Below, one piece after another: positions 1,414 through 56,334 of a stretch of DNA of 64,000 nt. The notes beneath the pieces are model-generated. The model made no database searches and was not told the origin of the DNA. It worked only from the letters and a program-made list of their open reading frames with translations. This DNA comes from an uncultured Flavobacteriales bacterium (GTDB taxonomy: Bacteria; Bacteroidota; Bacteroidia; Flavobacteriales_D; Sanyastnellaceae), in assembly GCA_938082505.1 (NCBI GenBank), contig CALLLH010000016.1, forward strand, positions 1 to 64,000. The letters run 5' to 3'. The stretch's first letter is position 1, and the number at the start of each line of letters is the position of its first letter. The translations under genes and the position numbers were made by a program.

Positions 1414-1421
1414 TAATTTTG
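1414..1421 (+). promoter_or_regulatory. TAATTTTG box just before ribA
   Basis: Exact match to the Bacteroidota -7 consensus TAnnTTTG, ending 4 bases before the ribA ATG. No TTG is seen at the expected -33 distance. If used as a -7 element, transcription would begin at or next to the start codon. Confidence 0.6.
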
Positions 1422-1425
1422 CCCC

Positions 1426-2010
1426 ATGGAATTGCTGGTCACGAGCCGTTTGCCTTCCGAGTGGGGTGCTTATCTCATTTCAGCCTTTGGGTTGGAAGGT
1501 GACCGGACTCCACATGTGGTGTTGCACAGAGAGGTAAGGGAGGCGGTGGAGGCCGGAGCGCATGTACCTGTGAGAATCCACAGTGAATGCATGACAGGAG
1601 ACATTTTTGCCAGCAAGCGGTGTGATTGTGGAGCCCAGTTGCACGCGGCCTTGCAGCACTTCAAGGAGGAGGGGGGAATGTTGATTTACCTGCGGCAGGA
1701 AGGACGGGGAATTGGCTTGGTGGAGAAGTTGAAGGCCTACAACCTGCAGGATGAAGGGATGAATACATTCGAGGCGAATGTGGCGCGGGGACACCGCGAG
1801 GATGAACGCGATTATGCGGATGCGGCTGCAATCCTGAAGCACTTCGGAGTAAAGAGAATTCACCTCTTGACGAACAACCCTGAGAAGGAAAGGGCCATGC
1901 TCACCCACGGAATTGCGGTGGAGCGCAGGGTGCCTGTCATCATGCCCACCAATCCTCACAATGAGGATTACATGAGGGCCAAAGAGGAAATTACAGGACA
2001 CATCTTGTAA
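1426..2010 (+). CDS. ribA: GTP cyclohydrolase II
   Basis: Opens the imidazole ring of GTP and removes formate and pyrophosphate, the first committed step of riboflavin synthesis, in the cytoplasm. The 194-residue protein has the zinc site HSEC-x10-CDC (C55, C66, C68), the substrate loop LRQEGRGIGL around residues 95-104, and the LLTNNPEK motif near residue 146. The length matches stand-alone RibA proteins (E. coli 196); there is no fused RibB (DHBP synthase) domain, although fused RibBA is common in Bacteroidota. It stands alone between a terminator and a convergent gene, so it is probably monocistronic. A TAATTTTG box lies 4 bases before the ATG and supports this start. Confidence 0.95.
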   Translation: MELLVTSRLPSEWGAYLISAFGLEGDRTPHVVLHREVREAVEAGAHVPVRIHSECMTGDIFASKRCDCGAQLHAALQHFKEEGGMLIYLRQEGRGIGLVEKLKAYNLQDEGMNTFEANVARGHREDERDYADAAAILKHFGVKRIHLLTNNPEKERAMLTHGIAVERRVPVIMPTNPHNEDYMRAKEEITGHIL

Positions 2011-2019
2011 CCGGGGGGC

Positions 2020-2976
2020 TCATGTCCAGGCATCGCGCGCGGCGCGAAAGGTCTGGAGGTGAGCGTCCACGATGGTGTTGACTTCGGTCGAGTATCCTCC
2101 ACCCATGGCGCAGACGGCTCCTATTCCGGCCGATCGGCATGCGTCAAAGACCATGATGTCCCGTTGCTTGCACCCCTCCATGGTGAGCGAAAGTCTGCCC
2201 AGACGGTCCGTGAACAGCACATCCACACCGCACTGGTACATCAGGACTTCCGGGCGAAAAGTCTCCATGATGCAATCCAGGGCGCTGTCGAGCTCCTTGA
2301 GGTAGTGTTCATCGGATGTGCCGTCCTCCAGTGGGATGTCCAACGTGCTGATCTCCTTGTGCAGGGGGTAGTTGTTCGCCCCGTGCATGCTCATCGTGAA
2401 GATGCGGGCCTCATTTTGGGTCATGCTGGCCGTACCGTTGCCTTGATGTACATCGAGATCGATGATGGCAATGCGTGCCACACCGAGGTCCAAAAGATGG
2501 TGTGCTGCAATGGCGAGATCATTGAGCAGGCAGAATCCCTCTGCTCGATCGGCAAAGGCGTGGTGCGTGCCTCCAGCGATATTCAAGGCAACACCTCCGG
2601 CCGCTGCGATGAGGGCACAGCGCCGGGTGCCTTCCATGATGATGCGTTCCCTTTCGATGAGGGCGTGTGACCAGGGGAATCCTGATTTTCGCTGTTCCTG
2701 TCGAGTCCATGTGCCGGTATTCAGCTTGCTGAGGTAGTCTGGGGGGTGGCATCGGAGAATGTGGTGGTCCTGAATCGGAGCCGGCCGGATCCAATGTGAG
2801 TCATCAATGATGCCTTCGTAGGACAACTGCTGTTGAAGGAGTGCGTATTTCGGCATGGGGAACCTGTGCTCAGCGGGCAATTCCAGCACATATTCGTCGC
2901 TGTAGGCGGCGAACGGAGATGCGTTATCACGCAATGTGAGGCGAGGGTTTTCATGCTTGGGATTCACTGTCTTCAT
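2020..2976 (-). CDS. Histone deacetylase-family amidohydrolase (class IV/HDAC11-like)
   Basis: Zinc-dependent deacylase of the arginase/HDAC fold, 318 residues from the ATG at 2976. All active-site elements are visible: tandem His (H138, H139) in GGTHHA, the zinc ligands D175 and H177 in DLDVHQGNG, third ligand D257 in the QCGVDVLFTD segment, and the catalytic Tyr in GGGYS (Y295). The EGFCLLNDLAIAA stretch and overall spacing resemble HDAC11 and bacterial deacetylase-like proteins. The substrate is unknown; acetylated proteins, polyamines and small amides are all known for the superfamily. An upstream in-frame extension to 3189 is not used because it adds residues without family resemblance and runs into the divergent gene. 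It is convergent with ribA. Confidence 0.9.
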   Translation of the reverse strand: MKTVNPKHENPRLTLRDNASPFAAYSDEYVLELPAEHRFPMPKYALLQQQLSYEGIIDDSHWIRPAPIQDHHILRCHPPDYLSKLNTGTWTRQEQRKSGFPWSHALIERERIIMEGTRRCALIAAAGGVALNIAGGTHHAFADRAEGFCLLNDLAIAAHHLLDLGVARIAIIDLDVHQGNGTASMTQNEARIFTMSMHGANNYPLHKEISTLDIPLEDGTSDEHYLKELDSALDCIMETFRPEVLMYQCGVDVLFTDRLGRLSLTMEGCKQRDIMVFDACRSAGIGAVCAMGGGYSTEVNTIVDAHLQTFRAARDAWT

Positions 2977-3075
2977 TTGCTGATTGTGTGAATTCAGGTA
3001 AATGCCAATACGTGGAAACGCATCACACTGAATTGTGTTTGCACGCACATTGATCTGTGCATTTGCTTTGTATAA

Positions 3076-4446
3076 ATGTGGAGAGTTGGGTGTAGTCTGC
3101 TTTTTGCGATGCAGGTGGGGGGACTCATCAGCCAGAATCCCCTGCGCCGCATGGATCCGGATGCATGGAAGGATACGGAGGCCGTCCAAAATGCGATAGC
3201 GATGTTTGGCAGCGCTGATTCCGCATACAGTTTCAGGATTTGGTTTGATTCAGGATCGTTCAAGATGCCGGCAGGCGCAGGAGGTGTTTGGTTCAATCGG
3301 GAGGAAGACATGCGTGTGGTCCTTGATTCTGCAGGGACCAGCATAGGTAAAAGCCACAATCATGGGTTCAACTACTATGCCTATCACTTCTATTGGAAGG
3401 ATCGATATTATGCCCTCGGGGGGCGGGGATTCTGGGAGGGACATTCAAAGTTGATTGAATTTGTTCCGGGTACGGGCGAGTGGGAATTGCAACCATGCGT
3501 CAATGCTCCTCATGCAGTGACAAACGAATTGTGCTGGTTCGATGGTTCGGGAGACCGGGTGGTGGCCATTCCTGTTGAAGATTTGAAGAAGGGATGGGGT
3601 GAGGAGGAATTTCCGTACGAGGTTGCCAGCTTGGATTTGAACTCGTTGTCGTGGACGGAATTGGGGGTGGTAAACCCTGTATTGGAGCATTATTTGTCGG
3701 GCAGGACGGGCAGGGTAGATCTTGAAGAGTATTTCATGGTCTACGGGTTGCACAAATCGGTCATCATCCGGAAATCCGATCTCATGGTGGTGGTGTCGGA
3801 TGCGTTCAATTTGGAATTAGTCGATTGGGGGAGGCTTGGTTTTGAGCGGGCTGTAGATTATTGGATTGAGACGGGCCGTGCAGGGATTTTCACGGTTGAA
3901 AAGGCGACGAACCAAGGGCAAGAGCGTTCGACGTTGTTGTCATGGAATGTCGATAGTGTGTTCGCCCAAGGTTTGAAGGAGGCCATTCCATTTGTGATGC
4001 CCAGGACACAACAGAAAGATGTGGAGTTGGATTATGGAGCGTTGGAATGGCTATGGAAACCCACGCTTGCTTCGGTGTTGATTGCCCTGGCGTTTCTTGC
4101 GGGTAGGAGGACTACAGTGTGGCAATCAAGTAGGAAGAGCCAGGCATCCCTGCAAGCAGAGGGAGAGAGGCCTGATCGGCCCAAATATCCGGAGATGAGC
4201 CCATTGACGGCTTCATTTCTTTCGTGCGGAAAGAAATTCATGGATACAGCCGAAATCAATGCCTTTCTGGGCCTGGATGAAGACACTTCGGAAGAGTCAA
4301 AACGATCCAGGCGCGCACAGGCCATCAGAATGGTGAATCAAGAATATCAGATGGGCTTTGGGCAGGATTTGATCGTGCGAGAAAAAGACAGCATCGATCG
4401 CAGGAGAACCACCTATTTCATCCGACCGCACTCAGATAGCGCATGA
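3076..4446 (+). CDS. Single-pass membrane protein with C-terminal cytoplasmic domain, function unknown
   Basis: Not recognised as a named family. The 456-residue protein starts with a signal-like segment, then has about 300 extracytoplasmic residues rich in Trp and Gly-turn strands reminiscent of a Kelch-like propeller (WELQPCVN, LSWTELGVV). A hydrophobic helix follows at about 330-347, then a basic linker and a C-terminal domain of about 85 residues. That last part (DTAEINAFLGL, SKRSRRAQAIRMVN, then DxIDRRRTTYFI) has the look of a compact helix-turn-helix or winged-helix unit followed by a strand. One reading is a membrane-tethered sensor or regulator: sensing outside, output inside. Base composition is more AT-rich than the genes to its right. 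It overlaps the convergent permease gene by 29 bases at the 3' end. Confidence 0.7.
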   Translation: MWRVGCSLLFAMQVGGLISQNPLRRMDPDAWKDTEAVQNAIAMFGSADSAYSFRIWFDSGSFKMPAGAGGVWFNREEDMRVVLDSAGTSIGKSHNHGFNYYAYHFYWKDRYYALGGRGFWEGHSKLIEFVPGTGEWELQPCVNAPHAVTNELCWFDGSGDRVVAIPVEDLKKGWGEEEFPYEVASLDLNSLSWTELGVVNPVLEHYLSGRTGRVDLEEYFMVYGLHKSVIIRKSDLMVVVSDAFNLELVDWGRLGFERAVDYWIETGRAGIFTVEKATNQGQERSTLLSWNVDSVFAQGLKEAIPFVMPRTQQKDVELDYGALEWLWKPTLASVLIALAFLAGRRTTVWQSSRKSQASLQAEGERPDRPKYPEMSPLTASFLSCGKKFMDTAEINAFLGLDEDTSEESKRSRRAQAIRMVNQEYQMGFGQDLIVREKDSIDRRRTTYFIRPHSDSA

Positions 4447-5725
4447 TTTCCATGCAGACGACGGCTCCGACTGTGCCGACGGCATATCCGAGAACGGCGA
4501 GCAGCACGCCCACAGGAGCCAATGCAGGGCTGAAAGCGCTTGCCACAATCGGGGCGCTGGCCGCGCCGCCCACATTGGCCTGACTGCCAACCGCCACGAA
4601 AAAGAACGGGGCTTTGATCAATTTGGCGACCGTGAGCAGGACCGTCACATGGACCAACATCCACAAAAGGCCAATCATGACAACAGGCGAATATTGGTTC
4701 CATGATGCAATGAGCTCACCAATGTCCATCTTGGCACCGATGGTCGCCACCAGGACATACAGAAACACACTGGCCAGTTTGCTTGCACCTACGCCCTCGT
4801 ATGAGCGCATGGGCGTGAAACTCAAGCCCACGCCGAACATGGTCGAGAGAAACACGAGCCAGAAAAAGGAGCTGGCAAGAGAACCCAGAAAACGGACGAA
4901 TGAATCGGGGTCTGCGGCCATGGACCGTTCATACCATGACTCCATGCCAGAACTGATGCCGTTGCCCATCAGGTGTGCCAGCCCCACCATCGCGAAGATC
5001 ACTCCGAGGAGGACCATGAGATCGTTGAACGTGGGGATGCGCGCTATGCTGCTTTGGTAATCTTCCACCTTTTGCTTGAGCTCTTCGACCGCAGAGGAGT
5101 CGGCTTTGAGTTTTTTGTCGATCACGGCGCTCATGCCGGCCCCGATCAGCAGAAAGGGCATCCAGAGGTTGGCCACGAAGACATCCACAATGATCATGAC
5201 GCTGAATTGATCATCCTGAGCCTGGGCAATTTCTTTGAGTGCCGTCTGATTGGCGCCTCCGCCAATCCAGCTGCCTGCAATCGTGGACAGGCCCCTCCAC
5301 AGGGCGTCGGGGGCATCACCCCCGAATACGTCCGGCCGGATCTGGCCCACCAGCCACAGGGCCACGGGGCCGCCTATGATGATGCCGAAAGTGGCGGCGA
5401 AGAACATGATCAGCGCCTTGGGGCCCAGATTGAGGATGCCCTTGATGTCAATGGAGAGACAGAACATGAGCAGACTCGCCGGCAGCAGATACCGGCTGGC
5501 CACATAGTAGAGGCTGCTGTCTTCGCCGGCTTCAATAATGCCGGTGGAATTGAGGATGGCCGGAAGGAAATAGGCCATCAACAGGGCGGGCACATACTTG
5601 TAGAAGCCTGAGAATCGGGGCAGTCTCGAAGTATGGAAAACGAGGGCAAGGCAAGCGAGGAGCAAGCCGAGAATGGGGGCGTCTTGGGTGATCACGGAAG
5701 CAAGATAGCGGCTGCAGGATGTCAT
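4418..5725 (-). CDS. DUF819 family membrane protein (YjcL-like permease)
   Basis: Polytopic inner-membrane protein of 435 residues with about ten hydrophobic segments split in two halves by a charged loop near residues 205-235. Family features are the Gly-rich segment WIGGGANQTALKEI after the first half and the symmetric GGAASAPIVASAF segment after the second, like the inverted repeats of bile-acid/citrate-type secondary carriers. DUF819 proteins are presumed transporters of unknown substrate; nothing here reveals the substrate. The 3' end overlaps the convergent upstream gene by 29 bases. The 5' end faces the glycosyltransferase gene across only 40 bases, so their promoters must be intermixed. 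Confidence 0.85.
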   Translation of the reverse strand: MTSCSRYLASVITQDAPILGLLLACLALVFHTSRLPRFSGFYKYVPALLMAYFLPAILNSTGIIEAGEDSSLYYVASRYLLPASLLMFCLSIDIKGILNLGPKALIMFFAATFGIIIGGPVALWLVGQIRPDVFGGDAPDALWRGLSTIAGSWIGGGANQTALKEIAQAQDDQFSVMIIVDVFVANLWMPFLLIGAGMSAVIDKKLKADSSAVEELKQKVEDYQSSIARIPTFNDLMVLLGVIFAMVGLAHLMGNGISSGMESWYERSMAADPDSFVRFLGSLASSFFWLVFLSTMFGVGLSFTPMRSYEGVGASKLASVFLYVLVATIGAKMDIGELIASWNQYSPVVMIGLLWMLVHVTVLLTVAKLIKAPFFFVAVGSQANVGGAASAPIVASAFSPALAPVGVLLAVLGYAVGTVGAVVCMEIMRYLSAVG

Positions 5726-5753
5726 TTTGGTGTGTCACCCCTGAGTTGGATGC

Positions 5754-5760
5754 TACTTTC
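5754..5760 (+). promoter_or_regulatory. TACTTTC box before the GT2 gene
   Basis: TACTTTC, 5 bases before the GTG start at 5766. Same spacing as the boxes before ribA and other first genes here, which supports the otherwise unusual GTG start. Confidence 0.45.
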
Positions 5761-5765
5761 GGGGT

Positions 5766-6815
5766 GTGCGATTCTCCGTCATCGTCCCCCTGTACAACCG
5801 CCCCGAAGAAATCCGGGAACTGCTGGATAGTCTCACGCGGCAATCCAAGCGGGATTTCGAGGTCATTGTCGTGGAGGATGGCAGTACGGAGGATGCCCGT
5901 GACATCGTTGAATCATTCGCGGACAGGCTCGATTTGCGCTATTTCTGGAAGGAGAATGAACGGCAGGGCTTCACCCGGAATTTCGGGTTTGAACGTGCCC
6001 GGGGAGAATGGCTGGTGGTATTCGACTCGGACTGTCTGATTCCGATGCGCTATTTCGAAATCGTGGAGGATTTCCTGGATCGGCACCCCGAGGTGGAGGT
6101 TTACGGAGGTCCTGACGCCGCCCACCCCTCGTTCACCCCCATTCAGAAGGCGATCAGCCACGCCATGACTTCACCCCTGACCACAGGGGGCATTCGCGGT
6201 GGAAGGAACACCATAGGGGCTTACCACCCGCGCTCCTTCAACATGGGCATCTCCAGGAAGGCCTATGAGGTGAGCGGGGGATATGCCATCACGGTCAAGG
6301 GAGAGGACATAGAGTTCTCCATGCGCCTTATCGCACACGGTCTGAAGAGTGCATTGATTCCAGGGGCCCACGTCTATCACAAGCGCCGAACGGATTTCGG
6401 CCAGTTCCGAAAACAGGTGGAGTTCTTTGGCCGGGCGCGGGTCAACATCCGCCGGTTTTTTCCGGGCAGTCTGAAGCCGCTCCATTGGATGCCAACCGCA
6501 TTCCTGGCCTATGTGGCCGGCATGCTGCCCGCCTCATTGCTTCTGTTCCATTTCGGACGTTCACCGATGTGGGCTGCCGCACCGGTGCTTCCTTACGTAA
6601 TCTGGCATTTGGCCCTGAGCATAGAGGCGGGCGTCACATCGCGTTCGCTGCTCGTGGCCCTTTTGGCGCCGAGGGCGGCAAGGATCCAATTGACAGGATA
6701 CGGATGGGGATTGCTCTCGGAGTACCTGACCGTGGTGGTCCTTGGACGCAGGGATTCGGTGATGGGTGAAATCAGAACGGTTCCGCCCGTTCCCACAAGA
6801 GGGGCTGGTTCATGA
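5766..6815 (+). CDS. Glycosyltransferase family 2
   Basis: GT-A fold transferase that moves a sugar from a nucleotide donor; 349 residues. The N-terminal nucleotide-binding segment SVIVPLYNR starts at residue 4, VVEDGST at about 36, the metal-binding DSD is D87-S88-D89 in VVFDSDC, and a GED motif (KGEDIEF) is where the catalytic base lies in the family. Two hydrophobic stretches at about 240-275 suggest membrane attachment, as in GT2 enzymes of cell-surface polysaccharide or glycolipid synthesis. The start is GTG at 5766: the reading frame begins right at the conserved first strand, and a TACTTTC box lies 5 bases upstream. The next gene starts inside its stop codon (ATGA), so the two are co-translated. 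Confidence 0.88.
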   Translation: MRFSVIVPLYNRPEEIRELLDSLTRQSKRDFEVIVVEDGSTEDARDIVESFADRLDLRYFWKENERQGFTRNFGFERARGEWLVVFDSDCLIPMRYFEIVEDFLDRHPEVEVYGGPDAAHPSFTPIQKAISHAMTSPLTTGGIRGGRNTIGAYHPRSFNMGISRKAYEVSGGYAITVKGEDIEFSMRLIAHGLKSALIPGAHVYHKRRTDFGQFRKQVEFFGRARVNIRRFFPGSLKPLHWMPTAFLAYVAGMLPASLLLFHFGRSPMWAAAPVLPYVIWHLALSIEAGVTSRSLLVALLAPRAARIQLTGYGWGLLSEYLTVVVLGRRDSVMGEIRTVPPVPTRGAGS

Positions 6816-7660: not shown

Positions 7661-7664
7661 GGGG

Positions 7665-11255: not shown

Positions 11256-11333
11256 GTTGGAACAGGTTGTTTGTCTCCCGTACTCCGGTTTGCAAGTTCA
11301 GGTTTCAATTTTCACGTTTAAACTGCCTTCATG

Positions 11334-11348
11334 CTGTTTTTCAAACAG
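11334..11348. promoter_or_regulatory. Short inverted repeat upstream of the M43 gene
   Basis: CTGTTT and AAACAG around a TTC centre, about 80 bases upstream of the protease start inside an AT-rich stretch (11256-11398) that otherwise holds no gene. Possible operator; no further support. Confidence 0.3.
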
Positions 11349-11436: not shown

Positions 11437-11457
11437 GGATTGAATATTTCTTTGAAA

Positions 11458-12935: not shown

Positions 12936-12942
12936 GGGGCGG

Positions 12943-12950
12943 CAAATCTA
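12943..12950 (-). promoter_or_regulatory. TAGATTTG box before yaaA
   Basis: Exact TAnnTTTG on the minus strand, 7 bases before the yaaA ATG. It lies beside the divergent secreted-protein gene, whose own box is 12975-12981. Confidence 0.55.
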
Positions 12951-12974: not shown

Positions 12975-12981
12975 TATTTTG
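12975..12981 (+). promoter_or_regulatory. TATTTTG box before the secreted protein gene
   Basis: TATTTTG, 5 bases before the ATG at 12987. It is the main reason for choosing that start over an in-frame ATG at 12960. Confidence 0.5.
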
Positions 12982-12986
12982 TCCCC

Positions 12987-16000: not shown

Positions 16001-16007
16001 TAATTTG
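16001..16007 (+). promoter_or_regulatory. TAATTTG box before the S46 peptidase
   Basis: TAATTTG, 5 bases before the ATG at 16013; same placement as in other first genes of the window. Confidence 0.5.
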
Positions 16008-16012
16008 CCGGC

Positions 16013-18587: not shown

Positions 18588-18594
18588 TAAATTG
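18588..18594 (+). promoter_or_regulatory. TAAATTG box before the first LOX gene
   Basis: TAAATTG, 5 bases before the ATG at 18600. Confidence 0.45.
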
Positions 18595-18599
18595 CCTGC

Positions 18600-37790: not shown

Positions 37791-40685
37791 TCAAAGTGCG
37801 AGGCGCTCCCGAAGGAAGGACCCGGTTATGGATTGCACGGATTGTGCCACAATTTCAGGTGACCCCATGGCAACGCAGGACCCCCCGTGCTTTCCGCCAC
37901 CCGGGCCGAGGTCGACGATGTGGTCAGATGCGGCCATGACATCGAGGTTGTGCTCCACGCAGATGACCGTATGGCCTTGACGGATGAGGGCGTCAAACGC
38001 CCCCAGCAGCTGCGCTACATCGTGGAAATGCAGGCCGGTGGTGGGTTCATCGAAGATGAATGCCGTGTGTCCTGCCCGGTCACCCTTCGAAAGGAAGGCA
38101 CCGAGCTTGATGCGCTGGGCTTCCCCTCCGCTGAGCGTGGTGGCACTTTGTCCCAACCGCACATAACCGAGGCCCACATCAAGGAGTGGGGCCAGCTTGC
38201 GCACGATCGAGCGCTCGGCGGCCGAAGGTTTCTTGCGGGCTGCAAAAAAGGCAGAAGCGTCCGATACGGTCATTTCAAGGATGTCGTGGATGTTGCATCC
38301 ATCCACCTCGATCTCAAGCACGGCGTCCGTGAACCGCTTCCCCTTGCACGCGTCGCAGGTGAGCGTCACATCGGCCATGAATTGCATGCCGATGGACACC
38401 CGGCCTTCCCCCTCACAAGTCTCGCAGCGGCCTCCGCTGGTGTTGAAGCTGAAGACGGAAGGCTTGTATCCCCTGTTTCTCGACAAGGGCTGTGCGGCGA
38501 AGCAGGACCGGACATCATCCCATGCCTTGACGTAAGTCGCGGGGTTCGAACGGCTGCTTTTGCCAATTGGGTTCTGATCGATGAATTCCACGGATTCGAT
38601 GCGCCCCACATCTCCGGACAGCCCATCGCTGATGCCCGGCCTGTCGCCCCCGAGATCGAGGTGACGCAGGAGCAAGGGGTGCAGAATGCGTTTGACCAGG
38701 GTGCTTTTACCGGAGCCGGAGACCCCGGTCACGACGTTGAGTGCCCCCAGCAGGAAATCCGCATCCACCCCGAGCAGGTTGTGCTCCTTGGCGTTGAGGA
38801 TCCGGATGCGGCCTATCCCTGCGCGGCGGTTTGCCGGAACGGGAATGCGCCGTTCTCCGCGGAGGTACTCGGCGGTGAGCGTTGACGCCGACATCATGCG
38901 GTCAAAGGAGCCGGCGTAGACGACCTGTCCTCCTTCGGATCCCGCAAGAGGGCCGAGGTCCACGATGTGGTCGGCCGCTCGGATGACGGCTTCCTCATGC
39001 TCGACGACCACGACGGTGTTGCCGAGGTTGCGGAGACCGGTGAGCACCTTGATCAGACGTTCCGTATCGTGGGGGTGCAATCCGATGCTCGGTTCATCGA
39101 GGACATATGTGCTGCCCACAAGGCTGCTTCCCAAGCTGGTCCCCAACTGGATGCGCTGACTTTCACCACCGCTCAGCGTGGCGCTCGCCCTGTTCAGGTT
39201 GAGGTAGCCCAGGCCCACATCAATCAGGAACTGCAATCTGTGCTCCAGCTCGATGAGGAGCCGGCGGGAAATGGCCCGCTCGCCCTCGCTGAGCATCAGT
39301 CCCCGCAGAAGGGGCAAGAGTTCATCCACGGGCATGGCCAGGAGGTCGGGGAGGGCATGGTCATCCACGAGCACATAGCGTGATTCCTTTTTGAGCCGGC
39401 TCCCTTCACAAACGTCACATCGTGTGCGCCCCCGGTAGCGGCTGAGCATGACCCTGTTCTGGATCTTGTAGCTCTTCGCTTCAAGCCGACTGAAGTAATC
39501 GTGGATGCCCTTCCACCAGCGATTGCCATCCCAAAGGGCCCGCTTTTGCTCGGCGCTCAGGTCCGCGTAAGGGGTGTGTACGGGGAAATCCGCGGCGTGG
39601 GCGTCTTCCAGAAGGCGCTGCTTGTAACGGCTGGCTTTCTCACCCCGCCAAGGGGCTACGGCATCTCCATAGACAGATTTGGAGGGGTCCGGGATGACCA
39701 GGTCCTCGCTGATCCCGATCACATGTCCGAAGCCTTCGCAGCGGGGGCATGCGCCTTGAGGGCTGTTGAAGCTGAACATGTCGGGAGAGGGCCACTCGAA
39801 AGCCATGTCGTCCAGCTCGAAGCGGTCGCTGAAGTGGTCGGTTCCCGTTTTGCCCTCTGGGTTGACCCAATGAAGGAGGCAATGGCCCCGGCCTTCGTAA
39901 AACGCCGTATCCACGGAATCTGCAAGCCGCTGATCGAATTCCTCTCCGCCCGAACGCTCCTCCGCGGTAGGGGTGGAAAGCCGGTCGATGACCAACTCCA
40001 AAGGCGCGTCCGACAGGGTCCCGTTCAGGTCGTCCAGCAGGTCGTTCAGTGACATGGGGCGCCCCTGTACCAGGATGCGGGCAAATCCTTGCTGCTGCCA
40101 GATTTCCAGTTGTGCCTTGAGGGGGCGGTCATCCGTCAGTTCGACCGGGGCGCAGACCATGAAGCGTTCTCCCGGTTGGACGGCCCGCACGGCATCGACC
40201 ACATCCGTGACGGTGTCCCGCTTGACCTCGTTGCCGGATATCGGACTGTAGGTCTTGCCGATTCGAGCCCACATCAACTTGAGATGGTCGTGGATTTCGG
40301 TGATGGTCCCCACCGTCGAGCGGCTGCTTCGCGATGTCACCCGCTGCTCCACTGCGATGGCCGGCGTCAGGTTGTCGATCCTGTCCACATCCGGTTTCTC
40401 CATGCGGCCGGCAAATTGACGCACATAAGCACTGAGGCTCTCGACATAGCGACGCTGGCCTTCCGCATACAAGGTGTCAAACGCGAGCGAACTTTTGCCG
40501 GATCCACTGAGACCGGTGATGACGGTCAGCGCTCCGAGGGGAATGTCCACATCGACATTCTTGAGGTTGTGCATTCGGGCGCCCCGGATTCTGATTTCCC
40601 GAGGGGACGAATCAAGGTCCAGTTCCGCCAAGCCTGCATTGGCTGTGTGTCCATCGGGCTCGGGTTTCTTGGAATGCTTGGGCAT
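37791..40685 (-). CDS. uvrA: Excinuclease ABC subunit A
   Basis: DNA damage recognition ATPase of nucleotide excision repair; 964 residues from the ATG at 40685. The first Walker A is GLSGSGKSS (K64), followed by AYVRQFAGRMEKPDVD; a second ABC half begins near residue 630 with VTGVSGSGKST. Signature motifs LSGGESQRI and LSGGEAQRI are followed by Walker B segments (VLDEPSIGL and IFDEPTTGL). Zinc-binding Cys clusters are in CDVCEGSRL and CETCEGEG with CDACKG. The Lys-rich N-terminal 30 residues extend beyond the usual start. The ATG at 40685 is preferred over one 27 bases upstream because AAATTCGC lies just before it. It is divergent from the sigma factor across 209 bases. Confidence 0.95.
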   Translation of the reverse strand: MPKHSKKPEPDGHTANAGLAELDLDSSPREIRIRGARMHNLKNVDVDIPLGALTVITGLSGSGKSSLAFDTLYAEGQRRYVESLSAYVRQFAGRMEKPDVDRIDNLTPAIAVEQRVTSRSSRSTVGTITEIHDHLKLMWARIGKTYSPISGNEVKRDTVTDVVDAVRAVQPGERFMVCAPVELTDDRPLKAQLEIWQQQGFARILVQGRPMSLNDLLDDLNGTLSDAPLELVIDRLSTPTAEERSGGEEFDQRLADSVDTAFYEGRGHCLLHWVNPEGKTGTDHFSDRFELDDMAFEWPSPDMFSFNSPQGACPRCEGFGHVIGISEDLVIPDPSKSVYGDAVAPWRGEKASRYKQRLLEDAHAADFPVHTPYADLSAEQKRALWDGNRWWKGIHDYFSRLEAKSYKIQNRVMLSRYRGRTRCDVCEGSRLKKESRYVLVDDHALPDLLAMPVDELLPLLRGLMLSEGERAISRRLLIELEHRLQFLIDVGLGYLNLNRASATLSGGESQRIQLGTSLGSSLVGSTYVLDEPSIGLHPHDTERLIKVLTGLRNLGNTVVVVEHEEAVIRAADHIVDLGPLAGSEGGQVVYAGSFDRMMSASTLTAEYLRGERRIPVPANRRAGIGRIRILNAKEHNLLGVDADFLLGALNVVTGVSGSGKSTLVKRILHPLLLRHLDLGGDRPGISDGLSGDVGRIESVEFIDQNPIGKSSRSNPATYVKAWDDVRSCFAAQPLSRNRGYKPSVFSFNTSGGRCETCEGEGRVSIGMQFMADVTLTCDACKGKRFTDAVLEIEVDGCNIHDILEMTVSDASAFFAARKKPSAAERSIVRKLAPLLDVGLGYVRLGQSATTLSGGEAQRIKLGAFLSKGDRAGHTAFIFDEPTTGLHFHDVAQLLGAFDALIRQGHTVICVEHNLDVMAASDHIVDLGPGGGKHGGSCVAMGSPEIVAQSVQSITGSFLRERLAL

Positions 40686-40894
40686 GGTGCGAATTTCGGT
40701 TACCCGGAACAACAGGGCGTTAACACGCTTTGGGGGTGCGCTGTTCGCCTCGGGCGGAATTTATCCGTATCTTGAAGTCAGAGCTGCAGGAAGCAGCATC
40801 GGAAAACAGAAGGCCATAAGTCAGACACTACCCTCACCGCACGTCACTTCTTGATCGACAGCCGTTCAACGGTGCGTGCATAATTCGTAGTGTC
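40686..40894. promoter_or_regulatory. Divergent intergenic region uvrA / ECF sigma factor
   Basis: 209 bases without a gene. It holds a plus-strand TATCTTG (40768-40774), a candidate promoter for the sigma factor with a leader of about 120 bases, and a TAATTCG 8 bases before the sigma ATG. Nothing else was recognised. Confidence 0.35.
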
Positions 40895-43120: not shown

Positions 43121-43127
43121 TAAATTT
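43121..43127 (+). promoter_or_regulatory. TAAATTT box before the outer-membrane barrel gene
   Basis: TAAATTT, 5 bases before the ATG at 43133. Confidence 0.4.
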
Positions 43128-43132
43128 CCGCC

Positions 43133-48019: not shown

Positions 48020-48121
48020 GGGTACGGCCCTAAAATACGGCACCGGCTTTCGCGGTGACCTTGAAGGGTTGTTGGGGTCGAAAATTGCTCTACATTTGCG
48101 CTCCCTTTCGGGGGAAAAGCT

Positions 48122-48198
48122 GACTCTGTAGCTCAACTGGATAGAGCACCTCACTACGGATGAGGAGGTTGAGGGTTCGAATCCTTCCAGGGTCGCCA
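48122..48198 (+). tRNA. tRNA-Arg (anticodon ACG)
   Basis: A 77-base cloverleaf: acceptor arm GACTCTG with CAGGGTC, D arm GCTC/GAGC, anticodon stem CCTCA/TGAGG with loop CTACGGA (anticodon ACG, read as ICG), T arm with GGTTCGAAT. Discriminator G and CCA are encoded. This tRNA reads CGU, CGC and CGA codons. It is divergent from the hybrid kinase and followed by its own terminator. Confidence 0.97.
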
Positions 48199-48207
48199 CA
48201 GCTTACA

Positions 48208-48250
48208 GAAAGCCTCCACTGCAATGTCGCGGTGGGGGCTTTCGCTTTTT
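48208..48250 (+). terminator. Terminator of tRNA-Arg
   Basis: 15-bp stem with two G-T pairs (48208-48222 with 48229-48243), loop AATGTC, then CGCTTTTT. It begins 10 bases after the CCA end. Confidence 0.9.
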
Positions 48251-48281
48251 GGACAGGGGGGAAGCATCGCCGAACCCGGGT

Positions 48282-48288
48282 TAAATTG
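48282..48288 (+). promoter_or_regulatory. TAAATTG box before acs
   Basis: TAAATTG, 4 bases before the ATG at 48293; its AT-richness contrasts with the GC-rich gene that follows. Confidence 0.45.
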
Positions 48289-48292
48289 ACCC

Positions 48293-50215
<1,923 letters not shown>

Positions 50216-50217
50216 AT

Positions 50218-50225
50218 TATCTTTC
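50218..50225 (+). promoter_or_regulatory. TATCTTTC box before the aminopeptidase gene
   Basis: TATCTTTC, 4 bases before the ATG at 50230, touching the acs stop codon. It supports that start over longer open frames that overlap acs. Confidence 0.4.
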
Positions 50226-50229
50226 GGGA

Positions 50230-51351: not shown

Positions 51352-52275
51352 TCACTCCGGGGAGCAGGGCGGATCGAGGAGGTCGAGGCCGTGCTTCCGG
51401 ATGATGTGCTCGATGCGGCCGTCGGCCCCTGTAGGATCGTAGATCCGATTGAGCCGGTAGCCCGAAAGGCGGCTGAACATCTTGATGGTTCTCCAGAAGG
51501 GCAAGCGGACCGCCTTCGCGTAATCGTCGGCGAAGTCGAGCATGCCCGGGTTCTGACGGTCCAGCAGATGAACGAGAAGGAAGCCTTCCTTCATGCCCAG
51601 CTCTCCTTCGAAAGCCGTGTCCTCAACCATCATCCTGTAACCGCGCCCATCGAGGCTGTCGGTGCTCATGTACCCGTTCTGTTCCTGCAGGGCGAGCATG
51701 CAGGCGTCATCCTGAATGAACAGCGTATCCGGTCCGTCCGCGTCTCCTCCAAAAGACACGCTGACATCATCCGACTCGGTGTCCGAAGGGGCAGGGGCTG
51801 GGTCCGGCTCATTCTTGCGCGCCTTCCGGTCTGCCTTGCGTTGCGCCTTGGATTCGGCGCGCCCCTCGCTGATTTCCTCCCTTTGGGCGAGCAACGTGTC
51901 TTGTGGCACGGCGTCGATGCCGTTCAGGAAGACTGGACGGAGGCTGTCGAGCATGACCGTGAGGATTTGAACTTGGGGCCAGACCTTCAGAACGAGGGCT
52001 TCCAGCTCCTGGTACTTGCTGCGGCTTTGGTCGTAATCCTTGATGTCCATGGACCGCCAATCGGGGCCGGATGCAGGCGCAATGACTTCCGCTGAACCGA
52101 GGAGATGGACATAGGGCCGAAAGGCCGCGGGCACCGCATTGGTATCCACCTCCTGGCCTTGCATGGCTCCGGAGAAGCCGATTCCCAGCAATAGGAAAAA
52201 GCATGCCCCTCGCGCAGCAGCCATGCCATGTCTGGACGGATTGGACGGATTGGACGAATGGAGCGACCCCAACAT
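51352..52275 (-). CDS. Secreted protein of unknown function
   Basis: 307 residues from the ATG at 52275; the hydrophobic signal begins at about residue 20 (GACFFLLLGIGFSGAMQGQ). An alternative start is 52224, which gives a shorter and tidier signal peptide; the TAACTTG box 4 bases before 52275 favours the longer form. The mature part has a conserved-looking block HLLGSAEVIAP-x-DWRSMDIKDYDQSRSKYQELEALVLKVWPQ that resembles DUF4294 only loosely, then a basic, Ala/Arg/Lys-rich linker of about 50 residues (coiled-coil-like), and a C-terminal block with WRTIKMFSRLSGYRLNRIYDPTGADGRIEHIIRKHGLDLL. Function is unknown. Confidence 0.6.
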   Translation of the reverse strand: MLGSLHSSNPSNPSRHGMAAARGACFFLLLGIGFSGAMQGQEVDTNAVPAAFRPYVHLLGSAEVIAPASGPDWRSMDIKDYDQSRSKYQELEALVLKVWPQVQILTVMLDSLRPVFLNGIDAVPQDTLLAQREEISEGRAESKAQRKADRKARKNEPDPAPAPSDTESDDVSVSFGGDADGPDTLFIQDDACMLALQEQNGYMSTDSLDGRGYRMMVEDTAFEGELGMKEGFLLVHLLDRQNPGMLDFADDYAKAVRLPFWRTIKMFSRLSGYRLNRIYDPTGADGRIEHIIRKHGLDLLDPPCSPE

Positions 52276-52279
52276 GCCG

Positions 52280-52291
52280 CAAGTTAATTTG
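52280..52291. promoter_or_regulatory. Overlapping divergent boxes CAAGTTAATTTG
   Basis: Minus-strand TAACTTG (52280-52286) and plus-strand TAATTTG (52285-52291) share two bases. The boxes are 4 and 5 bases from the divergent ATGs at 52275 and 52297, so two start codons are controlled from 21 intergenic bases. Confidence 0.5.
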
Positions 52292-52296
52292 CACCC

Positions 52297-52899
52297 ATGG
52301 ACCATTCATTTTCCGTGGGCGACCGCGTGCGCTTCCTGCACCAGACAGGGGAGGGCGTTGTCATGGCTTTGGAGGAAGGCGGGAAGTCGCTGATGGTCGA
52401 GGACGCTGATGGTTTTCCCATGCGTTTTGCGGCCAAGGACTGTCTGCCCATTCCGGACCTGGCAGCGGAGGCCAGGGCATATGCGTCCAAGGAGATCAGC
52501 AAGGGGGAATTGCTGGAACGCAATGTGGATGAAGCCGTGTTGAAAGCCTCACAGCGGGATTTCGATCTGAAATACCGGAACCCCGATGCCACGAACAAGC
52601 GCAAACGGGACGAGCACATGGAGGTGGACCTTCATTTCCATGCCCTGACCGGCGCGCGGGATTACGCCTCACCCCACGAGATGCTGACCCTTCAGATGGA
52701 GCATTTCGACCGGATGATGCGAAGGGCCGACGAGAAGCGGATTCCCCGGATCGTGTTCATCCACGGGGTCGGTCAAGGAAGGCTGAGACAGGAAATACGG
52801 GACGCATTGAACGCCTATTGGCCGGACTGCAGCTGCAAGGAAGGGGATCCAAGGAAATACGGCCACGGCGCCACCGAGGTGCGCTTCGGTCAGCGGTGA
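52297..52899 (+). CDS. Smr-domain protein with N-terminal SH3-like module
   Basis: 200 residues. The N-terminal 50 residues (FSVGDRVRFLHQTGEGVVMAL) are an SH3-like/KOW fold as in DUF2027 proteins. After a helical linker, the Smr domain (about 110-185) has DLHFHALTGA, ExLxxQMEHFDRMM and the RIVFIHGVGQGRLRQEIRDAL signature, followed by FGQR. Smr domains of this type are nucleases or nucleic-acid-binding modules (MutS2 C-terminus and SmrB act on stalled ribosome-bound mRNA). A role in RNA or DNA quality control is probable. The gene starts 21 bases from a divergent neighbour. Confidence 0.88.
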   Translation: MDHSFSVGDRVRFLHQTGEGVVMALEEGGKSLMVEDADGFPMRFAAKDCLPIPDLAAEARAYASKEISKGELLERNVDEAVLKASQRDFDLKYRNPDATNKRKRDEHMEVDLHFHALTGARDYASPHEMLTLQMEHFDRMMRRADEKRIPRIVFIHGVGQGRLRQEIRDALNAYWPDCSCKEGDPRKYGHGATEVRFGQR

Positions 52900-52900
52900 A

Positions 52901-53665
52901 TCACGGGCGCTCCGCCTCGAGGCGCTTCCGCATCATGTCCGCCTCCGTCACCGGAAATACAAAGCCCTCAAAAGTGATCTCGAGGGGCTCATCGAGGCTG
53001 TCTGCTCCCTTGAATTCGAGCACGATTCGGGGCTCCCTTCCGAACTGTGTGTCAATCGAAACCCAGCGGGTGGCCATGCCCTCGTAATTCCCAATGGCCA
53101 GGCTGGCGAACCCGGGTTCGAACCGGGGCCACAAGCGCCCGATGGCCTGCTCTTCTTCGGTGGCCTGGCTGTCCGCCCACAACTCATCGATGATCGTGCC
53201 CGATTCATACCAGTAATGGGCGCTCATCCGGCCATCGATTTCGCGGTCTCCGGAGACACGGGACAGGATGAGGGTGTCTTTCATCTGCTCACTGAGTCGC
53301 CCCTCGCCCCCGATCTTCACCTCTCCCAAAGCAGTCAGGCTGTAGCGCATGCCCAGATCAAGGTCCCCGATGTGGATGACCCGCGTGTCCCCCGTTTCGA
53401 CGACGCGTGCATAGGCCCCATGCCCGGGTGAATAAAAGAGGTCCATGGAGCCCTCCACTTTCTGGGGAGGTCGGCCCTCACCCGAGCCGGTCCGCTGGAG
53501 AAGATTATAGTGGATGACCTTGGTGAAGGTGTATCCTGCGGGACGTTCCGGCGTGACGCCATACACTTTTTCCAGCATTTCACCGGTTGTGGTCTGGCTT
53601 GAGGAACCCAGGGGAAGACCACCCACCAACAGCATCAGCACAAAGGGAAAGACTCGCGAATCCAT
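52901..53665 (-). CDS. Secreted protein, DUF4412-like, function unknown
   Basis: 254 residues from the ATG at 53665. Signal peptide ending LGSSSQ. The mature part (about 23-254) has KVEGSMDLFYSPGHGAYARVV, LGMRYSLTALGEVKIGG, and SHYWYESGTIIDELWAD-like strands in the order seen in DUF4412 periplasmic domains, which resemble LolA/LolB-type half-barrels. It is therefore perhaps a lipid- or peptide-binding periplasmic protein; no catalytic residues are visible. A TATCTTC box lies 5 bases before the ATG. The longer start at 53734 lies within the next gene and is ignored. Confidence 0.6.
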   Translation of the reverse strand: MDSRVFPFVLMLLVGGLPLGSSSQTTTGEMLEKVYGVTPERPAGYTFTKVIHYNLLQRTGSGEGRPPQKVEGSMDLFYSPGHGAYARVVETGDTRVIHIGDLDLGMRYSLTALGEVKIGGEGRLSEQMKDTLILSRVSGDREIDGRMSAHYWYESGTIIDELWADSQATEEEQAIGRLWPRFEPGFASLAIGNYEGMATRWVSIDTQFGREPRIVLEFKGADSLDEPLEITFEGFVFPVTEADMMRKRLEAERP

Positions 53666-53670
53666 GCGCT

Positions 53671-53677
53671 GAAGATA
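53671..53677 (-). promoter_or_regulatory. TATCTTC box before the DUF4412-like gene
   Basis: TATCTTC on the minus strand, 5 bases before the ATG at 53665. Confidence 0.4.
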
Positions 53678-53693
53678 GCCAAGGGACGCTCCT

Positions 53694-54635
53694 TCAGCGT
53701 CGATTGTTGCGCCCGTTTCGCGTACGGGGATCATTGAAGGGGCGGCTGCCAGGCAACGCCTGGATCACCGTGACGTTCTGCTGCAATTGCCAAGGTGTGC
53801 CCGGTCGATTGCCTGGAACGAAGGCGTCAAAAGTCATGTCGGGACCGTAATAGGCGGCAATGCCCGTGAGGTGGGGCGCCTGTGGCGCGAGATGGTCGAA
53901 CACGATCCTCTCCGGATGACCATCGCGCCCCCTCTCCATGGGTTGGAAGCGCAGCGATGCCTGGACTGCATCCGCGTATTCGAGGATCCATCGCTTGGCC
54001 ATTCGGCCATCCGTGCTCAGGACGGGCGCACCGAAACGCATGCCCCGCGGCCGCATTTCCACGGGTTCGATGACCTTGCGCGTGACCTGGGCGTCGGCAT
54101 CGTCCCAGCCCAAAAGAAGCCAGGTGTCCTTGTCCACCGCATCAGGCACCATGCCGAAGTAGAGGGCACCATGCCACTCTTCGGCCTTGTAGGTCTGGTT
54201 CAATGCGGGTGCGTCGGAGCTCTTCAGGTCGAGCAGTGGAGTGAATTCCAAGGGGGCATCATCGGACCGACGGAAAGCGACCAGCCCTGCATAGGATGAA
54301 GTGCGGTCGGACTGGGGCCAGTTCCATGTGAAGACCTTGAGCCGCCCATCGATCGACTCAATGGCGGCCATGAAATCACAGGGGCTGATTTGCCGCGTTC
54401 CATTTTCCTCGGCCGCCACCAGGAGGTCCTGCAACTTCAAGGAGAGTTCAGCACTGGCAGCCGCACACTCCGGACCTTCACAAGTCGAAAGGACGGCGTG
54501 CAGGGGCTTCAGTTCTGCAAGGTCCAGCACCTGAGGAGACTGTGAGAATACACAGCCCATGGACATGGCCGTCAGCAGACAGGACAACAGCGGATGGGAT
54601 GTCCAGCGGCCGAAACCTTCAATTCGCTCTTTCAT
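53694..54635 (-). CDS. Secreted protein of unknown function
   Basis: 313 residues from the ATG at 54635 (an ATG at 54653 is an alternative). Signal-like hydrophobic segment at about 16-32 with a Cys before the cleavage region (SMGCVFSQ). The sequence includes CEGPECAAASAELSLKLQDLLVAAEENG, then strands RLKVFTWNWPQSDRTSSYAGLVAFR and WHGALYFGMVPD, a pattern of exported Bacteroidota proteins without a known function. It ends in a Pro/Arg/Asn-rich tail (RPFNDPRTRNGRNNRR). It is same-strand with the DUF4412-like gene, 28 bases apart. Confidence 0.65.
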   Translation of the reverse strand: MKERIEGFGRWTSHPLLSCLLTAMSMGCVFSQSPQVLDLAELKPLHAVLSTCEGPECAAASAELSLKLQDLLVAAEENGTRQISPCDFMAAIESIDGRLKVFTWNWPQSDRTSSYAGLVAFRRSDDAPLEFTPLLDLKSSDAPALNQTYKAEEWHGALYFGMVPDAVDKDTWLLLGWDDADAQVTRKVIEPVEMRPRGMRFGAPVLSTDGRMAKRWILEYADAVQASLRFQPMERGRDGHPERIVFDHLAPQAPHLTGIAAYYGPDMTFDAFVPGNRPGTPWQLQQNVTVIQALPGSRPFNDPRTRNGRNNRR

Positions 54636-54828
54636 GGTGCACTCGATGTCCAAGGGCAGAACGGCATTGGCGCCGTTCCCAGTGTGTGTCCCAAATTAAG
54701 GGTTGAGCCAGACGGTTGGCGCATGGCCCATGCTTCGGTGTATCCGTGGCGCCCTGCATTCCCCAAGGAAGCCCATTCGTGTCCTGCCCTCAGGTGCACG
54801 AGCAGGGGAGGGCCTTCCGATTCGAAAA
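54636..54828. other. Gene-free stretch between the ferredoxin end and the secreted-protein start
   Basis: 193 bases. On the minus strand TAATTTG (54692-54698) is a candidate promoter for the gene ending at 53694, with a leader of about 40-60 bases. GAACGGC and GCCGTTC (about 54658-54677) form a 7-bp stem in that leader. No gene or other signal was seen. Confidence 0.4.
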
Positions 54829-55176
54829 TCAGAGGTGCATGAAGGCCTTCTTGGCGAGGAGCTGGTCCTCCGACTCGCGGTGGTCGGGGTCGTCGACACA
54901 GCAGTCCACCGGACAGACGGCGGCGCATTGGGGTTCGTCGTGGAACCCGACACACTCGGTGCACTTGTCCGTCGCGATGTAATAGACGTCCATGCTGCCG
55001 GGGTCTTGCATCGCATCGGCACTGATCGCCCCGGCGGTGGGGTGATTGCCCTCACCCTTCAGCCCCGTTCCGTCGGCAAAGGTCCATTCGGCACCACCCT
55101 CGTAGATGGCGTTGTTCGGGCATTCCGGTTCGCAGGCCCCGCAGTTGATGCAGGCATCCGTTATCATGATGGCCAT
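54829..55176 (-). CDS. Dicluster [4Fe-4S] ferredoxin
   Basis: 115 residues from the ATG at 55176. Cluster I uses CINCGACEPECP (the CxxCxxCxxxCP motif at about residues 9-20), and cluster II uses CTECVGFHDEPQCAAVCPVDCC (about 74-95), with the extra residues between the second and third Cys that mark Alvin-type ferredoxins. It carries electrons for low-potential reactions in the cytoplasm. It is divergent from the acyl-CoA reductase gene, a pairing often seen in Bacteroidota, which hints that the ferredoxin may donate to a nearby enzyme, though LuxC-type reductases normally use NADPH. Confidence 0.92.
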   Translation of the reverse strand: MAIMITDACINCGACEPECPNNAIYEGGAEWTFADGTGLKGEGNHPTAGAISADAMQDPGSMDVYYIATDKCTECVGFHDEPQCAAVCPVDCCVDDPDHRESEDQLLAKKAFMHL

Positions 55177-55202
55177 GGCAGAATTCTTTGTGCGGCAAGT
55201 CG

Positions 55203-55221
55203 CCGGTACAAAAATAACCGG
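55203..55221. promoter_or_regulatory. Divergent control region with inverted repeat CCGGT-N9-ACCGG
   Basis: Inverted repeat CCGGT (55203-55207) and ACCGG (55217-55221) around an AT-rich centre. The centre contains, on the minus strand, TATTTTTG (55209-55216), an exact TAnnTTTG box for the ferredoxin gene 33 bases downstream. An operator overlapping the promoter is likely. Confidence 0.5.
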
Positions 55222-55276
55222 TGAACCCCTCAGGATGTTGGGCCCATCTTTGCAAATCCCACAACAAATCCCATTC

Positions 55277-56329
55277 ATGCTTCAAGAACAGCGCTCCGTG
55301 GATGTCCAGCGCGCACGAAAAGTGCTGCGGACTTTGGCCGATGGGCTTCAATCGGTGCTCGACGAAAACCCCGGAAATCACTGGGAGGCGCTGCATGCGG
55401 CCACGGCAGTTGCTTCACATGCCAATGGTTGGTTTACCCCTGACAATGTGCGTTTTGCCCTTGAAGTTTGGCGTGAGGCCTTGACGTCGGATGCGGTCGA
55501 GGCCTGGCTGGAGCAACTTCCTGAGCAGCGTGGGGATGGCGCACCCCGGAATGTGGGCATCATCACGGCGGGCAACATTCCCCTGGTGGGGATGCACGAC
55601 CTCATCTGTGGCGTGGTTTCTGGACATCGGGTCCAACTCAAACCGAGCCGCGATGATGCGGGCTTGACCCGCGCATTGCTTTCGGGTTGGAGTGCGGCTT
55701 CACCGGGCATCGGCGAGCAGGTGGTCATTGCGGAAGCGGCCCTCAAGGGATTCGACGCCGTCATCGCCACAGGCAGCCGGAACAGTGGGCGCTACTTCAA
55801 GCATTACTTCGGGAAGGGGCCGCACATCATCAGAGGACAACGCACTTCGGTGGCGGTGCTCGACGGAACCGAATCCCACGAGGAACTGCAGGCCTTGACG
55901 GAAGACATCTTCCGCTATTTTGGTTTGGGCTGTCGCAATGTGACACAAGTCTTCATTCCTGAGGATTTCGACCTCGACCGTCTTTTTGCCGCCTTTGTGG
56001 ATTGGGAACACCTGGCAAACCATCACCGCTACCACAACAACTACACCTATCACAAGGCCCTGTGGCTCATGGAGGCAGTCGATCTGCTCGAGAATGGATT
56101 CGTCCTGCTCAAGGAAGATCCCGCTTGGGTGTCTCCTGTGGGCGCCCTGCACTATCAGCGCTACAAGGATGCCGCAGAAGTAGAGGCCCGGATCGGGTCG
56201 GGAAGGGAGGAAATCCAATGTCGTGTGGGCAAGGGGGGACTGCCATTCGGAAAGGCGCAACATCCAGGGCTGGCCGATTATGCGGATGGCGTGGACACGA
56301 TGGACTTTCTGCTGGGGCTCGGAGCCTAA
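55277..56329 (+). CDS. LuxC-type acyl-CoA reductase
   Basis: Reduces long-chain acyl-CoA or acyl intermediates to aldehydes with NADPH; 350 residues from the ATG at 55277. The catalytic Cys is C219 in FGLGCRNVTQVF, the thioester-forming residue of the family; GIITAGNIPLVG (nucleotide binding), QLKPSRDD, and ATGSRNSGRYFKHYFGKGPHIIRGQRTS are also conserved. The N-terminal 30 residues before DVQRARKVLRTL fit the family length. In Bacteroidota the gene often neighbours a ferredoxin, as here, and its physiological substrate is unknown. The next gene's TAACTTCG box overlaps its stop codon. Confidence 0.9.
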   Translation: MLQEQRSVDVQRARKVLRTLADGLQSVLDENPGNHWEALHAATAVASHANGWFTPDNVRFALEVWREALTSDAVEAWLEQLPEQRGDGAPRNVGIITAGNIPLVGMHDLICGVVSGHRVQLKPSRDDAGLTRALLSGWSAASPGIGEQVVIAEAALKGFDAVIATGSRNSGRYFKHYFGKGPHIIRGQRTSVAVLDGTESHEELQALTEDIFRYFGLGCRNVTQVFIPEDFDLDRLFAAFVDWEHLANHHRYHNNYTYHKALWLMEAVDLLENGFVLLKEDPAWVSPVGALHYQRYKDAAEVEARIGSGREEIQCRVGKGGLPFGKAQHPGLADYADGVDTMDFLLGLGA

Positions 56330-56334
56330 CTTCG
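56327..56334 (+). promoter_or_regulatory. TAACTTCG box before the DUF4249 gene
   Basis: TAACTTCG, 4 bases before the ATG at 56339, and its first three bases are the stop codon of the reductase gene. Confidence 0.4.

Follow-up and report, generated by a model that had tools for sequence, protein, structure and literature searches.

A TAHHTT box in fixed register with start codons points to leaderless mRNAs in a group of Flavobacteriales genera

Where does transcription begin in a bacterium in which the same short box stands at nearly the same distance before one start codon after another? The question is raised by a stretch of 64,000 nucleotides (the window: positions 1–64000 of contig CALLLH010000016.1, in its whole length) from an uncultured Flavobacteriales bacterium of the family Sanyastnellaceae, whose metagenome-assembled genome (MAG) comprises 2,445,221 bases in 60 contigs at about 60% GC. 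An earlier note on the window had described a TAnnTTTG-like box before at least 13 starts, had equated it with the -7 element of Bacteroidota promoters and had suggested that the first genes of transcription units are translated without a leader. In the in silico analysis given here, the box has a TAHHTT core, its register to the start codon is sharp, and leaderless messenger RNA (mRNA) is the best explanation, that is to say, the transcripts of boxed genes very probably begin at the start codon. The position of the 5′ ends and initiation at a 5′-terminal start codon are what we infer from these sequences.

The box and its register to start codons

Distance is counted from the first T of the box to the first base of the start codon; g1 denotes the genus that holds the window, G001 is another genome of g1, and G018 belongs to genus g3. 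First of all, direct reading of the window finds TA-N2-TT upstream of all 13 listed starts, ten of them at distance 12, two at 11 and one at 15 (Table 1), so that the claim of a box before each of these starts holds. In the window, 13 instances of ATG or GTG have the strict hexamer TAHHTT at distance 12, whereas the counts for distances 20–69 average 1.56 and never exceed 3. A scan that used no gene calls, covering 417,978 bp (the window and 20 further stretches of the same genome), placed TANNTT before ATG 42 times at distance 12, 22 times at 13 and 18 times at 15, while the other distances between 6 and 44 gave 2–14 and the background is about 7; 31 of the 42 cases at distance 12 qualify as candidate starts, lying no more than 60 codons from the leftmost start that a called gene offers. 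Over the whole genome there are 148 instances of TAHHTT-N6-ATG, against 40 of the reversed control, and with the box at distance 22 there are 25; TANNTTTG-N4-ATG in its strict form is scarcer (24 vs 4).

The working consensus is TAHHTT, followed by G, T or C at -6 (0.43, 0.32 and 0.24), mainly C or G through -2, and C at -1. Among 58 sites picked without restricting the two middle positions, the frequency of G is 0.05 at -10 and 0.00 at -9. G reaches 0.36 at -5, which makes the TG weak, and the full TANNTTTG is rare; the motif first proposed is accordingly taken as TAHHTT with a weak TG. At distance 12 TAHHTT is found 75 times against a background of 4.7, and the next commonest pairs at -12/-11 are GA (13 vs 4.3) and CA (9 vs 4.3). 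C stands at -1 in 80% of the 75 boxed distance-12 starts, compared with 51% of 311 unboxed starts and 31% of all ATG. The enrichment at distance 12 holds for ATG and GTG and is lacking for TTG in the window's genome and in G001; in G018 the TTG and GTG counts at distance 12 are small (3 and 1) and show no such pattern.

In Flavobacterium johnsoniae 4–5 nt separate the box from the start site, with the numbering T-12, A-11, T-8 and T-7 (PMC6847099). With this published spacing, a box at distance 12 would put +1 on the A of ATG; the box is placed as expected for transcription that sets out from the start codon itself, and the mRNAs are therefore probably leaderless. A pyrimidine at -1 and a purine at +1 are usual for transcription starts. 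C at -1 ahead of A at +1 fits this pattern. The rival that survives best is that of short leaders, in which start sites lie 1–10 nt upstream of the start codon and the mRNAs are near-leaderless. The secondary excess at distances 13, 14 and 15 (13, 11 and 20 against about 4.7 per distance), part of whose distance-15 class is made up of ATGATG double starts, would correspond to up to about 3 nt of leader; however, 75 of the 126 boxes at distances 11–15 stand at distance 12, that is, at zero leader by the published spacing, and the C before the A fits a start on the A, so that short leaders are considered unlikely for these genes.

Leaderless transcription is further suggested by the excess of boxes near candidate starts. 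In 677,978 bp of the window's own genome the excess is 60 ± 9 at distances 11–15 and -10 ± 13 at distances 16–44, and in G001 it is 26 ± 6 and -1 ± 8; named Bacteroidota loci, pooled over 957,267 bp, have the opposite pattern (21 ± 9 and 67 ± 26). The mechanism proposed is as follows. In this genus, TAHHTT would serve the primary promoters, of sigma-A type, as their -7 element; at many genes its first T would be fixed at -12, with C at -1, and the start codon's A (or G) would be +1. RNA polymerase would then start on the start codon and produce a leaderless mRNA, which the ribosome would have to enter at a 5′-terminal AUG or GUG. In some tightly packed gene pairs, the TAA stop codon upstream would supply the TA of the promoter, leaving gaps of 9 nt.

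Promoter signal, boxed genes and conservation

In loci of g1, TAHHTT lies within 60 nt upstream of 17 of 22 tRNA and transfer-messenger RNA (tmRNA) genes, at varying distances of at least 19 nt from the RNA gene (counted by eye). About 1 would be expected by chance, by our own estimate from base composition, and 7 of the 17 belong to one orthologous tRNA-Arg. Moreover, in rpsU the box stands 25–27 nt before the start in 8/8 fetched g1 copies, as well as in single copies from g3, g5 and g10, and CCAAT is common to the short leaders. Because it is present at tRNA genes and at 25–27 nt from the rpsU start, the box is, as judged from sequence, a transcription signal, and together with the T/A/T/T register and the avoidance of G at -10/-9 this upholds its earlier assignment to the Bacteroidota -7 element.

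The opposite possibility, that the box is a translation signal (a ribosome-binding site other than the Shine-Dalgarno (SD) type, or a Kozak-like context) of an mRNA that starts further upstream, is rejected as highly improbable. That the distance to the start codon is fixed would be explained equally well by a ribosome signal, and Kozak-like contexts are used by F. johnsoniae (PMC6847099). Against it stand the boxes before tRNA genes, which are untranslated, and those 25–27 nt before rpsU, and genes coupled to the preceding one need translation too, yet are boxed in 1 case of 66. The positions of a Kozak-like context are A-rich, the opposite of what is seen here, where A is rare at -3 (0.09) and -6 (0.02).

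A start was counted as coupled when ATGA or TRATG is available at the previous stop codon. For the 66 stop–start coupled genes 0.2 boxes were expected. Of 218 divergent first genes, 44 bear the strict hexamer (8.0 expected), as do 17 of 137 genes behind same-strand gaps of more than 50 nt (2.3 expected) and 14 of 80 behind gaps of 13–50 nt (1.3 expected); among uncoupled genes that follow a gap of at most 12 nt, 16 of 96 are boxed (1.3 expected), a rate similar to that of divergent first genes. A restriction of the box to first genes is ruled out by these tight uncoupled genes. That is to say, the earlier claim that genes joined by ATGA or by tight spacing lack the box stands for coupled genes and fails for tight uncoupled ones. 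A cross-validated weight matrix recovers more sites: when trained on G001 and applied to the window's genome, it found boxes at distances 11–15 for 45 of 84 divergent first genes (11.6 expected) and for 22 of 72 genes with gaps of 10 nt or less (9.0 expected), and when trained on the window's genome, for 18 of 48 divergent genes of G001 (6.8 expected) and 14 of 33 of G018 (5.1 expected). The box in the leaderless register marks a large minority of genes, not all. The proposal that first genes are leaderless is supported by the register and by the near absence of boxes from coupled genes; it has to be widened to tight uncoupled genes and narrowed to this minority.

Conservation was followed in 121 ortholog pairs between the window's genome and other members of g1, from which 34 without a shared start were dropped. 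The box is kept in 25 of 27 pairs boxed in the window's genome (14 of its genes) and gained in 0 of 60 pairs unboxed there. Identity in the 27 boxed pairs is 0.81, 0.67, 0.74 and 0.93 at -12, -11, -8 and -7, compared with a mean of 0.50 at -60 to -17; in acs the upstream DNA has diverged among the g1 copies and the position of the box is retained. An artefact, in which AT-rich DNA before start codons meets wrong start calls, has a general basis in the AT-rich upstream regions of Bacteroidota (PMC3155529), but it is rejected as having next to no probability, given the sharp single-distance peak even without gene calls, the excess of distance 12 over distance 22 in a genome of 60% GC, and the conservation of the box between g1 genomes.

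At 11 boxed same-strand starts in g1 loci, the TA of the box is formed by the TAA stop codon of the preceding gene, and the gap measures 9 nt in ten cases and 10 nt in the other; the count took TAA only, since TAG and TGA fall outside the pattern. A general class of overlapping divergent promoters was also considered and dropped, as only one pair (52275/52297) was found in the loci scanned.

Several observations weigh against leaderless transcription. Boxes by the strict hexamer cover only about a fifth of divergent first genes, and about half of these genes have no recognised box even by the matrix; the gene calls come from an in-house caller that calls too few genes. The final two bases of TTTG are weak. 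A -33 TTG element was not found, being present at 9 of 95 boxed starts compared with 5–14 in shifted windows, in agreement with the earlier remark that none was visible. In rpsU a short leader of 13–15 nt with a common CCAAT is found in the 8/8 g1 copies (L281, L282, L285–L288, L291 and L292). In six other g1 members pooled, an excess of 16 ± 4 at the leaderless distance stands beside a leadered excess of 13 ± 6; in G025 (g10) the two are 9 ± 3 and 10 ± 4. G019, of g4 and outside the four leading genera, has 12.5 ± 4 beside 2 ± 7 in 80 kb, and the trait may reach further than the whole-genome ratio given below suggests. Extra g3 genomes show a small peak of 2, 3 and 1 at distances 12–14, with 8 over 30 far distances, and other samples of about 50–85 kb gave excesses too small to judge.

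Distribution, ribosome and known systems

For 299 genomes of the order, the box count at distance 12 was divided by that at distance 22; high GC depresses the background and inflates this ratio, which is not a pure gauge of leaderless usage. The ratio is 7.41 in g3 (7 genomes), 6.22 in g10 (2), 4.00 in g1 (11; 5.9 in the window's genome) and 2.31 in g5 (18), followed by 1.78 in g19 (1 genome) and 1.47 in g14 (11), and the remaining 13 genera sampled in the family stay at or below 1.30. For 211 genomes of the order that belong to other families, the median is 1.03 and the maximum 1.34. The register spike is strongest in four genera (g1, g3, g5 and g10) of one family. In a phylum sample of 238 genomes, the window's genome is the highest by eye. 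Within that sample, among genomes whose count at distance 22 is 40 or more, the top value outside its own family is 94/44, in family f35; the f35 genomes G436, G459, G424, G428, G467 and G352, plus G501, have raised ratios of about 1.6–2.1 (by eye), and f35 is perhaps a second, weaker leaderless lineage.

Bacteroidota lack SD sequences. The 16S 3′ end, which carries the anti-SD, was recovered with a strict pattern in 9 of 114 genomes of the family and not found in the window's genome, g3 or g10. Six genera (g2, g6, g7, g9, g11 and g12) have the standard ACCTCC; the core is altered, in one genome each, to AACTCC in g1 (G012) and g14 (G179) and to ATCTCC in g5 (G088), the 16S loci with an altered core being L266 and L308 (G012), L307 (G088) and L309 (G179). 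By 16S, g1, g5 and g14 are mutually closest among the nine, at 93.0–93.7% identity; the identity is 88.2–91.6% to g2, g6, g7 and g12, and it is lower to g9 and g11. Both of the four spike genera with a recovered end, g1 and g5, have an altered anti-SD core. Two cases weigh against a simple link: in g14 the anti-SD is changed and the spike weak, and G052 (f13) has ATCTCC yet no spike (548 vs 545 at distances 12 and 22), therefore a changed anti-SD alone does not imply the leaderless register.

In rpsU leaders, AAAGGAG is present in f7 and f4 and was not seen in g1, g3 or g10. It is also lacking in the spike-free f3, f13, g4, g16 and g20; the loss is therefore not specific, which lowers the odds that the lineage as a whole switched its mode of initiation. 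The protein bS21 is present, with its C-terminal tyrosine in AVYKN. For ribosomal protein S1 the window's genome contains a nearly full-length match. Loss of S1 was considered and is rejected in view of long matches in 10 of 17 g1 genomes, this one included; the other seven have a short match or none, and none of 45 genomes reached the curated cut-off.

Leaders prevail in the Bacteroidota studied so far, where very short or absent ones make up 3.7–13%. In F. johnsoniae 87% of leaders are longer than 10 nt, and leaderless mRNA, once tested, was dismissed as the explanation for the lack of SD sequences (PMC6847099); in F. psychrophilum 5.5% are leaderless (PMC9723704), and in Bacteroides thetaiotaomicron about 3.7% of leaders are shorter than 10 nt (PMC7366714). 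In a genome survey, leaderless genes turned up in 1 of 37 Bacteroidetes/Chlorobi genomes (2.4%), and it was considered unlikely there that a high percentage had been missed (PMC3160421). The box shares the TAHHTT(TG) -7 element of the sigma-A (ABfr) promoters of these three species, in the revised form TAHHTTTG proposed for F. johnsoniae. As in F. johnsoniae, the two middle positions avoid G; the -33 element, not found here, is much less evident there too (PMC6847099), so that the -33 is a weak defining feature. Unlike in those systems, the near-start excess in the window's genome lies at the leaderless distance only, and TG is weak. Leaderless genes of Actinobacteria and Deinococcus-Thermus, which average 19.2% and 39.4% of genes, likewise have a -10-type element at a fixed distance and transcription from the start codon (PMC3160421), but these belong to other phyla and their box is Pribnow-like. 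In Weeksella, Chryseobacterium and Riemerella the CCUCC core of the 16S 3′ end is not conserved either, and leaderless mRNA is mentioned for some Flavobacteriia lacking CCUCC (PMC10783764).

Leaderless transcription in general is already known. The features that look new are that it dominates near starts in one Bacteroidota group, is fused with stop codons and is accompanied by a changed anti-SD. In titles and abstracts of the open-licence literature, neither a predominantly leaderless Bacteroidota lineage nor stop-codon promoters of this kind were found described, which is weak evidence of absence. With a confidence slightly above even, it is speculated that this group of genera has dropped leadered initiation, its near-start sigma-A promoters having become leaderless, its anti-SD core changed, and its promoters fused with stop codons and divergent starts. 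If true, largely leaderless expression would have been reached independently here, within a phylum whose studied members are leadered; a leaderless-dominated group beside leadered relatives could show how a lineage shifts its mode of initiation and what roles bS21, bS1 and the anti-SD have afterwards. For such MAGs, TAHHTT 12 nt before ATG or GTG would be a practical rule for start codons.

Boxed starts of the window

The coordinates are collected in Table 1. Start 12935 on the minus strand is taken to be the gene that had been listed as yaaA. A scan of 140 kb with Rfam gave 5 tRNAs and nothing else.

Table 1. Boxes and the starts they precede in the window (distance in nt; "listed" marks the 13 starts of the earlier note)
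Feature	Span	Strand	Start and distance	Gene	Orthologs and remarks
Box TAATTTTG + 4 nt	1414..1425	+	ATG 1426, adjoining; 12; listed	ribA (GTP cyclohydrolase II); Pfam GTP_cyclohydro2	Kept in G001
Box TATCTT (5702-5707)	5696..5707	-	GTG 5695; 12		Missed by the earlier list; kept in G001
Box TACTTT	5754..5765	+	GTG 5766; 12; listed	Glycosyl transferase family 2	G001 keeps GTG, box one base closer
Box TAGATT (12945-12950)	12936..12950	-	ATG 12935; 15; listed		G at third box position; weaker, possible 3-nt leader; no ortholog start shared
Box TATTTT	12975..12986	+	ATG 12987; 12; listed		No ortholog start shared
Box TAATTT	16001..16012	+	ATG 16013; 12; listed	Peptidase S46	Kept in G001
Box TAAATT	18588..18599	+	ATG 18600; 12; listed	Lysyl oxidase domain	No ortholog among compared loci
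Box TAAATT	43121..43132	+	ATG 43133; 12; listed		Orthologs in hand boxed in 5/5 cases, one of them with distance 11 and another with the box ahead of the first ATG in ATGATG
Box TACATT	48091..48096	+	tRNA gene at 48122; 31	tRNA-Arg	Untranslated control; 7/7 orthologous tRNA-Arg genes, this one included
Box TAAATT	48282..48292	+	ATG 48293; 11; listed	acs (acetyl-CoA synthetase)	Distance 11-12 in 8/8 g1 copies examined, this one included; two more start-reaching copies (G005, G008) left out of the count
Box TATCTT	50218..50229	+	ATG 50230; 12; listed	Alpha/beta hydrolase	Inside the 14-nt gap after acs; kept in 5/5 orthologs in hand
Divergent start region, 21 bp: minus box 52281-52286, plus box 52285-52290	52276..52296	both	ATG 52275 (-), 11; ATG 52297 (+), 12; both listed	Smr domain (52297)	Boxes overlap in TTAA; no start shared with an ortholog
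Box TATCTT (53672-53677)	53666..53677	-	ATG 53665; 12; listed		Kept in G016
Box TAACTT	56327..56338	+	ATG 56339; 12; listed		TAA is the stop of gene 55106-56329, ATG 9 nt on; same arrangement in both orthologs in hand (one TAAGTT, read by eye)
Candidate box TACATT (59137-59142)	59132..59142	-	ATG 59131; 11		Sequence only; start without ortholog confirmation

In addition, two minor observations concern variants of the promoter. In the tRNA-Arg copies a TTG is seen by eye about 19 nt ahead of the TACATT box (window 48062-48096), where a -33 element would sit; tRNA promoters may retain this element, which mRNA promoters lack. A GAAATT variant is conserved near the leaderless distance (CCGAAATTCGC..ATG) in the window at 37791-40712 on the minus strand and in the orthologs L192, L193 and L195, GAHHTT being the form already seen to be enriched at distance 12; this variant may be a weaker promoter or may belong to a different sigma factor.

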